A stretch of 64,000 nucleotides of DNA, taken from assembly GCA_019311105.1 (NCBI GenBank), contig JAFDDA010000042.1, positions 1 through 64,000 on the forward strand, given 5' to 3'. The DNA comes from Deltaproteobacteria bacterium. GTDB taxonomy: Bacteria > Myxococcota_A > UBA9160 > JAFDDA01. The notes under the pieces are model-generated. The model was given only the letters and a program-made list of their open reading frames with translations. It was not told the DNA's origin and ran no database searches. The position numbers and the translations under genes were made by a program. Positions 52,395 through 55,587 of the stretch are shown here, piece by piece; positions within the stretch are counted from its first letter, which is position 1, and every line of letters begins with the position of its first letter.

Positions 52395-52679
52395 ATGGCC
52401 ATCGCGAAACTCGAAGACCCTGAGGTGCAATCGCGCCTCGCCAACCATCCGGGCTGGGCCGTGGTCGACGGAAAGCTCCACCGCGAGTTCGAGTTCGCGA
52501 GCTTCGTCGAGGCCTTCGGCTTCATGGCGAAGGTGGCCTTGCTGGCCGAACGCGCCGACCACCACCCGGAGTGGTCAAACGTCTACAACAGGGTCCGCAT
52601 CGATCTCACCACCCACGATACCGGCGGCCTGAGCGACCGCGACTTCCGACTCGCCACCGAGATCGACGCACTGCTTTGA
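52395..52679 (+). CDS. 4a-hydroxytetrahydrobiopterin dehydratase (PCD/DCoH family)
   Basis: 94 residues from the ATG at 52395 after AGGA. The family motif is complete: [20 protein letters not shown] followed by [20 protein letters not shown], with the three active-site histidines. It dehydrates 4a-hydroxypterin, recycling the cofactor of aromatic amino acid hydroxylases; many bacteria carry it without such hydroxylases and use it in pterin or molybdopterin metabolism. TAGACT at 52378-52383 lies 11 nt upstream. It is convergent with the selenoprotein gene. Confidence 0.93.
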
Positions 52680-52729: not shown

Positions 52730-53209
52730 TCAGAGGTGGGCGTCCAGCGTCGCGCCGATCTCTTCTGGGGTCGTCTGCGGTGCGAAGCGCGCCACCACCT
52801 GGCCCGACCCGTCGACGAGGAACTTCGTGAAGTTCCACGCCACGTCCTCGTTCCCGTCGTCGTCCGGGTTGCCCGATTTGAGGAAGCGGTAGAGGTCGCA
52901 GGCACCGTCGCCGTTGACCTCGATCTTGGCGAACATCGGGAACTCGACCCCGAACTTCGAGCGCGCGAACTCGAGGATCTCCTCGTTCGTTCCCGGCTCC
53001 TGCTTCCCGAACTGGTTGCAGGGAAAACCCAGGACGTTGAAGCCGCGGTCGTGATTTTCGTCGTGAAGGGTACGCAGACCTGCGTACTGAGGGGTGAGGC
53101 CTCAGGCACTCGCCAGGTTCACGACCAGACAGACCTGGCCCTGGTAGCGAGAGAGGCTCACCGTCTCGCCCGTGATCGATTCCATCTCGAAGTCGTGAAG
53201 GCTGGCCAT
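52730..53209 (-). CDS. Selenocysteine-containing glutathione peroxidase (UGA at codon 36)
   Basis: From the ATG at 53209, after the strong RBS AAGGAGGATCC, the minus frame encodes 159 residues with one in-frame TGA at 53104-53102. Around it the protein reads VCLVVNLASA-U-GLTPQYAG, where U36 falls exactly on the catalytic Cys/Sec of GPx (family pattern N-x-A-S-x-C/U-G-x-T). Full collinearity continues: FNVLGFPCNQFGKQEPGTNE (Gln70) and VAWNFTKFLVDG (Trp125, Asn126), completing the catalytic tetrad. A SECIS-like hairpin starts 14 nt after the UGA. The enzyme reduces peroxides using glutathione or thioredoxin. If UGA were a stop, only 35 residues and a separate 68-residue ORF from ATG 52936 would be called. 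It follows the LLM gene by 60 nt on the same strand. Confidence 0.9.
53070..53087 (-). promoter_or_regulatory. Bacterial SECIS-like stem-loop for the glutathione peroxidase UGA
   Basis: On the coding strand, GTACGCAGGTCTGCGTAC begins 14 nt after the TGA and folds as a perfect 7-bp stem with loop GGUC. The tip GCAGGUCUGC is identical to the SelB-binding tip of the E. coli fdhF SECIS as I recall it (GGUUGCAGGUCUGCACC), where the apical G and U are recognised. Bases of the hairpin are at the same time codons for QYAGLRT. Confidence 0.85.
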
Positions 53210-53269
53210 GGATCCTCCTTGCAGGTGCTTACGAAGCTACCACGTTGCCTTCTGCGTAGAGGCTCCCGA

Positions 53270-54225
53270 CTAGCCGAGCGCCTTGTTCGCGATCTCGCCG
53301 AGGAGTGCGATCCGCTCCGGGTCGTGACCGTTGACGGGGAGGTCGACGGCGAGGCCGTCGAGGCCCTTGCGTCGGACAGGATCTCGCCCACCGTGTCCGG
53401 GTCTCCACTCACGAGGGCGTTCTTCGTGGCCTCGATGCGGCCGTCGTTCCAGCCCTTCACCTCGGCGATGGCACGGAAGTCGGCGTCGAGCTCCTCCTGG
53501 GTCGGTGCCACGGCGACCATCACGAGCTTCGTCACCTGGATCTCCGAACGATCGCGACCCAAGCGCTCGCAATGGCCGGCCAGGGCCTCGAGCTTCCGCG
53601 GGATCGCGTCGATCTCGCCCGTCAGGTTCGACTCATCCGCGTACTGGGCGACCATGCGCAGCGTCTTCTTCTCACCCTGCCCGCCGATCATGATCGGGAT
53701 CTTCGAAACCGGCGCGGGGACGTTCGCCGCTTCGGTCACTGAATAGTGTTTGCCGGAGAGCGTCGGACGCTCGCCGCGCAACATCGGCACGATGATCTGG
53801 AGCGCCTCCTCGAGCTTCTCGAAACGATCGGTGAAGGTCCCGAACTCGAAGCCGAGATCCGTGTGCTCCTTCTCGAACCAGCCCGCCCCGATGCCGAGGG
53901 TGGCCCGCCCCCCGGAGACGTGATCGAGTGTCGTGATCGCCTTCGCCAGGAGCACCGGGTTCCGGTACGTGTTTCCCGTAACGAGCGCCGAGAGTCGCAC
54001 TCGCTCGGTGTGCTGCGCGAGCGCCGCGAGCATCGCGTAGCACTCGAACATCGGCTCGTCGGGCGCGCCCAGGCCCGGCAGCTGATAGAAGTGGTCCATC
54101 AGGAAGACGCGGTCATACCCCGACGCCTCGGCCGCCTTCGCCTGTGCAATGACGTGGCCGAAGATGTCCTCCGGGGCGACGCCCGGGTAGGTGAAGTTCG
54201 GGATCTGGTAGCCGAGTCGAGTCAT
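53270..54225 (-). CDS. LLM-class flavin-dependent oxidoreductase with an apparent 3' frameshift
   Basis: ATG at 54225. The luciferase-like barrel is intact to about residue 285 (AAEASGYDRVFLMDHFYQLP, GRATLGIGAGWFEKEH, SGDPDTVGEILSD). At about 53369 the conserved C-terminus switches to another frame, KGLDGLAVDLPVNGHDPERI then ALLGEIANKALG, ending at TAG 53270-53272. One missing base in GAC-GC-AAG-GGC would explain this (expected DAKGLDG). Without correction the original frame runs to 53158 into the selenoprotein start with a Ser/Arg-rich tail. It may be a sequencing error or a recent mutation. Confidence 0.75.
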
Positions 54226-54531
54226 GGAGGTTCCCCTCGGGTTGGACGCCGGGCCATGGTACCGGGCGACCTCGAACGTGCCCGCGCAAGGGACCGGAAT
54301 GAAAGAGGACTCCCCGCGGACACCTGCCCCGCGCAAAATCGACATGCCCTCGCTCGTAGAAAGGGGGAGCGGGTAGAAGCCCGACCGAGAGTGCCGAGGA
54401 ACGCAGTGGAATGGCCGATGCGCACGCGAGAGACCGACTGGGTACGCTGCCCCATGGCACCCACGGGCTGGCACTGGCGCCACCCGTGCCAGCTGGCCGG
54501 GGGCGAGCGGTGCCGAAGGAGTTCCCCTGCC
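54226..54531. other. Intergenic region between two divergent LLM genes
   Basis: About 306 bp with no gene I can support on either strand. It contains the RBS regions of both flanking genes (GAGGGGAACC on the left, AAGGAG at about 54516 on the right). I see no strong -35/-10 pair. Confidence 0.6.
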
Positions 54532-55587
54532 ATGAGCGTCGAAGTGAGCTGGTTCTCTGCCCTGTGCGACGACGACTACGAGTTCCTGGGCATCCCGGAC
54601 CCGGCGCTGCGTTCCTCCTGGGAGCACTGCCGCGACATCGCACTGGCGGCCGACCGTCACGGCTACGACAACCTCCTGCTGCCGTCGGGCTATGCGCTCG
54701 GGATCGACTCGATCGCATTCGCGGGCGGCGTTGCGCCGCTGCTGCGTCAGATCCGGCTGCTGGTCGCGGTGCGTTGCGGCGAGCTCTGGGCGCCCCAGCT
54801 GGCGCGCCAGCTCGCGACGCTCGACCAGATGCTCGCCGGGCGCCTCACGATCAACATCATCTCCTCGGACCTGCCGGGCCAGAAGCTCGAGAGCAAGCCG
54901 CGCTATGCGCGCACACTCGAAGTCATGCAGGTGCTGCGCACCCTGCTCGACGGCAAGCCCGTGGACTTCCACGGCGAGTTCATGGACCTGACGCTCGCGC
55001 CGCCCGCCGCCCGCACGGTTTCGGGCGCGTGTCCGCCGTTCTACTTCGGCGGGATGTCCGAGCCGGCACGCGAGGTCGCCGCGGCTGGCGCCGACGTCTA
55101 CCTGATGTGGCCCGACACGCTGCCGGCGGTCGCGGAGACGCTGGCCGACCTGCGTGCACGCGCCGAGAAGCACCGCCGAGCGCTGCGCTTCGGCTACCGC
55201 GCCCACGTGATCGTACGCGAGAGCGAGGCCGAGGCGCGCGACGCCGCGGCCCGGCTCGTCTCGAAGCTCGACGACGAGACCGGTGCCGAGATCCGCAAGC
55301 GCTCGCTCGACTCGGAGTCGGCCGGCGTGCGGCGCCAGGCCGAGCTGCGCGAGAACGCCACCGATGGTTGGGTCGAGTCAAACCTCTGGACCGGTATCGG
55401 GCGCGCGCGGTCGGGCTGCGGGGCCGCGATCGTGGGCGATCCGGATCAGGTCGCGGCCAAGCTGCACGCGTATCAGGACCTCGGCATCGAGGCCTTCATC
55501 CTGTCGGGCTACCCCCACCTGACCGAGTGCGACCTGTTCGCGCGCTACGTCCTCCCCCAACTCGACCACGCCCCGCTGAGCGTCTGA
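54532..55587 (+). CDS. LLM-class flavin-dependent monooxygenase (SsuD/alkanesulfonate type)
   Basis: 351 residues, ATG at 54532 with RBS AAGGAG. The SsuD-like features SWFSALCDDDYEFLGIPDP, LPSGYALGIDSIAFA, GRLTINIISSDLPGQKLESK and the C-terminal FILSGYPHLTECDLFARYV are clear. SsuD cleaves C-S bonds of alkanesulfonates using reduced FMN; relatives also attack dialkyl sulfones and other compounds. No sulfonate transporter is nearby, so the substrate is uncertain. Confidence 0.88.
   Translation: MSVEVSWFSALCDDDYEFLGIPDPALRSSWEHCRDIALAADRHGYDNLLLPSGYALGIDSIAFAGGVAPLLRQIRLLVAVRCGELWAPQLARQLATLDQMLAGRLTINIISSDLPGQKLESKPRYARTLEVMQVLRTLLDGKPVDFHGEFMDLTLAPPAARTVSGACPPFYFGGMSEPAREVAAAGADVYLMWPDTLPAVAETLADLRARAEKHRRALRFGYRAHVIVRESEAEARDAAARLVSKLDDETGAEIRKRSLDSESAGVRRQAELRENATDGWVESNLWTGIGRARSGCGAAIVGDPDQVAAKLHAYQDLGIEAFILSGYPHLTECDLFARYVLPQLDHAPLSV

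Follow-up and report, generated by a model that had tools for sequence, protein, structure and literature searches.

The window, the whole 64 kb stretch of DNA analysed, contains a gene for a selenocysteine (Sec)-type glutathione peroxidase (GPx) at 52730-53209 on the minus strand, which encodes 159 residues when U36 is counted. A Shine-Dalgarno-like AAGGAGG (53214-53220, minus strand) lies four bases upstream of the ATG, and the gene ends at an ordinary TGA stop (52732-52730, minus strand). As originally predicted, translation from 53209 to 52730 gives one frame with a single internal stop, the TGA at codon 36 (53102-53104, minus strand), which occupies the catalytic (peroxidatic) position in the context NLASA-U-GLTPQY. 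When the TGA is read through, the product matches the Pfam GSHPx family PF00255 over the full profile (1-108 of 108, E 1.2e-40) and reads MASLHDFEM...NLASA-U-GLTPQY...FPCNQFGKQE...WNF. The predicted catalytic residues Gln70, Trp125 and Asn126 are all found intact downstream of the TGA, and the tetrad U36, Q70, W125 and N126 is kept in all 38 Sec homologues first aligned. A composition scan of the window for further TGA read-through genes gave only the site at 53104 as convincing, with four other flagged sites judged by eye only. The gene is flanked by a luciferase-like monooxygenase gene (53270-55206, minus strand) and a pterin-4a-carbinolamine dehydratase gene (52407-52679, plus strand), neither of which lies beside any of the other Sec-GPx loci; the genomic place of the gene is thus not conserved.

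A SECIS-like hairpin is predicted just downstream of the catalytic TGA, at 53070-53087 on the minus strand, with a 7-bp stem (GTACGCA/TGCGTAC) and a GGTC loop. The perfect stem and GGUC loop described at the outset are present, start 14 nt 3' of the TGA, and fold as drawn. In bacterial SECIS elements the apical loop lies 16-37 nt after the UGA (PMC10778597) and contains a G (PMC1088965); the window hairpin is inside the frame, its GGUC loop begins 21 nt after the UGA, and there is G in the loop. The original prediction also likened the tip to that of the SECIS of E. coli fdhF, and for the tip this holds. The E. coli K-12 fdhF sequence (from NC_000913) is GGTTGCAGGTCTGCACC, and GCAGGTCTGC is an exact 10-nt tip common to it and the window hairpin; the two elements have an identical apical GCAGGUCUGC and GGUC loop, and both fall within the 16-37 nt range (PMC10778597). 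The likeness does not extend to position or to the whole stem, since GGTC begins 18 nt after the TGA in fdhF and 21 nt after it in the window GPx gene, a shift of one codon away from the UGA, and the window hairpin, with its fully paired 7-bp stem, has no bulged U like that in the upper stem of fdhF; the host gene, coding for formate dehydrogenase in fdhF, is unrelated. A bulged U in the upper stem is a feature of fdhF and does not define all bacterial SECIS elements.

Taken from the single sequence, the hairpin is only suggestive. Its fold energy is unremarkable relative to shuffled sequences (z about -1), perfect hairpins with 7-bp stems and 4-nt loops occur at 13 places in the 64 kb window, and a 7-bp hairpin falls within the SECIS range of 1.2% of the window's TGA triplets. 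An Rfam scan of the window gave no match above threshold, and the 10-nt hairpin tip, sought elsewhere in the genome, occurs at 20 places with no other convincing selenoprotein, a reversed control pattern being commoner. What sets the hairpin beyond chance is its conservation across relatives, not the single sequence.

Of 192 genomes searched, counting that of the window, 34 carry a GPx gene with one in-frame TGA, and all 34 belong to the window's own order or class. The contigs of public genomes contain eight TGA-GPx loci, one of which is a sequence already in the first set; they come from a Myxococcota MAG (74% identity), an unplaced Deltaproteobacteria MAG, four Pseudomonadota MAGs and two Acidimicrobiales MAGs. 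The selA gene is present in all 34 of the genomes with TGA-GPx, and SelA in the genomes of all eight public loci except L056; within the 34 the co-occurrence is consistent but weakly informative, because selA is common in that group. The two Acidimicrobiales MAGs (loci L057 and L060) have a Sec-GPx with the same hairpin, and both have selA; transfer between phyla is possible, as is a binning error.

Alignment of the GPx homologues, suggested at the outset as a check for Cys or Sec at codon 36, gives Cys in 88 and TGA in 42 (the window gene and 41 others) and no other residue. A Cys-GPx pseudogene, with TGC or TGT altered to TGA by mutation or by sequencing error and the gene dead or misread, would require a single base change, and an intact Cys paralogue is found on contig C16 of the same genome (55% identity, with the resolving Cys and without the hairpin). 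However, the TGA is common to 42 loci of divergent species with frames intact on both sides, both the protein downstream of the TGA and the hairpin are conserved, and a TGA shared across dozens of independently sequenced genomes refutes this explanation, to which we give virtually no credence.

The 42 TGA loci represent 41 distinct sequences, in which all seven stem pairs are kept with the exception of one A-C cell. At the fourth stem pair (pair 21-32), 35 sequences have C-G and six have U-A, a two-sided change that turns Arg46 into His. Pair 19-34 varies between U-A and U-G, and 40 of the loops read GGUC, the remaining one AGUC. As read from the sequence, the wobble bases of the stem pair mostly with second codon positions, so little variation is possible in the stem. 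Codon usage within the hairpin is almost fixed, with GCA at codon 43 and CTG at codon 45 in all 42 loci and GGT at codon 44 in 41 of the 42, although elsewhere in the same genes GCA makes up 9% of Ala codons and GGT 15% of Gly codons. The mean third-position entropy is 0.24 bit in codons 41-47 versus 1.45 bit around them. The Cys homologues use codons freely at the hairpin positions, and nearly all of them have Gln or Glu as residue 46; the conservation and covariation of the hairpin are tied to the UGA.

These patterns bear on whether the hairpin is a by-product of a conserved QYAGLR rather than a SelB element, with the true SECIS elsewhere or insertion proceeding independently of a SECIS. 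QYAGL is indeed largely conserved in the protein and the single-sequence fold energy is ordinary, but the near-invariance of the third positions (0.24 against 1.45 bit) is not required by the amino acids, the C-G to U-A change comes at the cost of Arg to His, codon use is free in Cys homologues that share QY.GL, and L058, alone within the Sec clade in coding for Cys, has lost the hairpin. We therefore regard a by-product hairpin as very improbable, and treat the element as a putative SECIS.

The window comes from a 4.76 Mb draft genome of 258 contigs that is 90% complete. A search for the sel genes had been proposed as a check, and selA, selB, selC and selD are all present in it. The SelA (525 bits), SelD (279 bits) and SelB (274 bits) matches are all above curated cut-offs, as is that of the tRNA-Sec (74 bits), on which ARAGORN agrees, with anticodon TCA. 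SelB has a GTPase domain and, in its C-terminal part, the SelB-wing_2 and wing_3 domains; its alignment with E. coli SelB is full-length. An AhpC-TSA profile search of the genome yielded five more Prx-like genes, each with one TGA at the redox position: U-P-Y-C on C75 (L182) and C221 (L183), U-P-P-C on C202 (L194), U-P-F-T on C130 (L184) and U-P-F-C on C47 (L189). Hairpins are predicted after the TGA in each of the five from single sequences, and for C47 a fold with a GGUCC loop is an alternative. For the formate dehydrogenase family, this genome gave neither an in-frame TGA nor a match exceeding the cut-off. With the draft in 258 contigs, this tally of selenoproteins is a partial one.

Reassignment of TGA (e.g. 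to Trp or Gly), or its read-through by a near-cognate tRNA, would place a residue other than Sec at codon 36, and TGA read-through alone would likewise be expected to give the full-length frame. TGA is nonetheless a normal stop here, terminating 19 of the window's 37 long high-GC3 frames as well as the GPx gene itself; codon 36 is only ever Cys or TGA, the genome has the full sel gene set, and the in-frame TGAs found in it occupy the peroxidatic positions of Prx and GPx genes. A residue other than Sec is thus most unlikely. The original prediction that the organism inserts Sec at the UGA is supported by the sel genes, the restriction of codon 36 to Cys or TGA, and the TGA-tied hairpin, all of them sequence evidence.

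The sequences show the gene, its catalytic UGA, a conserved hairpin, the full Sec machinery in the genome and no resolving Cys in the peroxidase. The locus is almost certainly a bacterial selenoprotein gene, and by far the most plausible account is SECIS-directed Sec at codon 36, which would give a GPX4-type one-Sec peroxidase reliant on an outside thiol. In the proposed mechanism, SelA and SelD would make Sec-tRNA-Sec, and SelB would carry it and bind the hairpin just 3' of UGA 36 through its fdhF-type apical GGUC, such that the ribosome at UGA 36 would insert Sec rather than terminate. The predicted product is a GPX4-type peroxidase that is monomeric, lacks a resolving cysteine and has U-Q-W-N as its active site. 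Hydroperoxide reduction would proceed via a Sec selenenic acid, which would probably be resolved by an outside thiol (glutathione-like or another) and not by an internal disulfide.

The absence of the resolving Cys is a property of the Sec forms as a group. Position 82 is the resolving-Cys site of 2-Cys GPx enzymes (region described in PMC10084747). Of the 87 aligned Cys homologues, 85 have Cys there; the 42 Sec forms have Ala (34) or Val (8) and never Cys. The Sec forms are one clade (support 100/99) that includes one Cys-coded member, L058 (3001-3468), from a Pseudomonadales MAG; it has TGT, no resolving Cys and no hairpin, and its genome has selA. A Sec-to-Cys reversion in L058 is probable and the simplest reading. 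A topology that places L058 outside the Sec forms is not rejected either (AU 0.45); the gain of Sec and loss of the resolving Cys therefore amount to essentially one evolutionary event, and their association depends on it.

In the tree, animal Sec forms cluster with a Cys-GPx of plants, apart from the bacterial Sec clade (97/96), which favours independent origins of the animal and bacterial Sec-GPx; a joint animal and bacterial Sec clade is not rejected (AU 0.14). A broader history can be proposed, in which a Sec-GPx equipped with an fdhF-like SECIS of its own originated a single time among bacterial GPx enzymes, lost the resolving Cys independently of the animal forms, and then passed as a single gene among Myxococcota, Pseudomonadota and Actinomycetota, its hairpin unchanged; we put the chances of this at about even.

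The window gene belongs, with good support, to an already described kind of bacterial selenoprotein. The Gpx of Treponema denticola is a bacterial Sec-GPx (PMC1794560), and a 2006 survey lists one sequenced bacterium with Sec-GPx; Sec-GPx with bacterial SECIS elements are reported from the Sargasso Sea (PMC1088965), 40 Sec-GPx sequences from GOS (PMC2398784), and a 2026 review includes GPX-like, UxxT among bacterial selenoproteins (PMC13188914). The suggestion that Sec-GPx is uncommon in bacteria is thus correct in that it is a minority form, but the family is already published (PMC1794560, PMC1088965, PMC2398784, PMC13188914). Compared by description, the published bacterial enzymes and that of the window have the GPx fold, Sec in UxxT (U-G-L-T in the window) and an in-frame SECIS-like hairpin just after the UGA; the window differs in that its host belongs to an uncultured order, apparently of Myxococcota to judge by the nearest named record, and in that a whole clade has the gene. 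Animal Sec GPX4 and the Schistosoma Sec GPx similarly have catalytic Sec, Q-W-N and no resolving Cys, but their SECIS is of a different type and located in the 3' UTR. The bacterial 2-Cys GPx enzymes of the thioredoxin-dependent type (PMC10084747) have the same fold and catalytic Q-W-N, but have Cys in place of Sec, a resolving Cys, and no hairpin.

Less routine are the swap between Sec and the resolving Cys and the occurrence of the gene in MAGs from three phyla. Bacterial GPx enzymes are described as 2-Cys in two recent papers (PMC8614756, PMC10084747), so it is the loss of the resolving Cys from an entire bacterial Sec clade that is less expected. It suggests a bacterial lineage in which a 2-Cys GPx was remade into a one-Sec enzyme, and the swap of internal disulfide chemistry for Sec could therefore be tested in close homologue pairs. 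The strictness of the hairpin and its closeness to fdhF mean that Sec insertion could be tried directly in E. coli. Annotation pipelines that take UGA as a stop would split the window GPx gene.

The genome has two identical tRNA-Sec genes (locus L009) on contig C140, at 703-801 and 1974-2072, 1.27 kb apart, with an apparent acetyltransferase-like gene (judged by eye) between them and a third, partial tRNA-Sec copy (1904-1951) just before the second gene. A duplication or insertion at this locus is likely, because among 46 genomes with a strong tRNA-Sec match only that of the window and one other, G014, have two tRNA-Sec genes.
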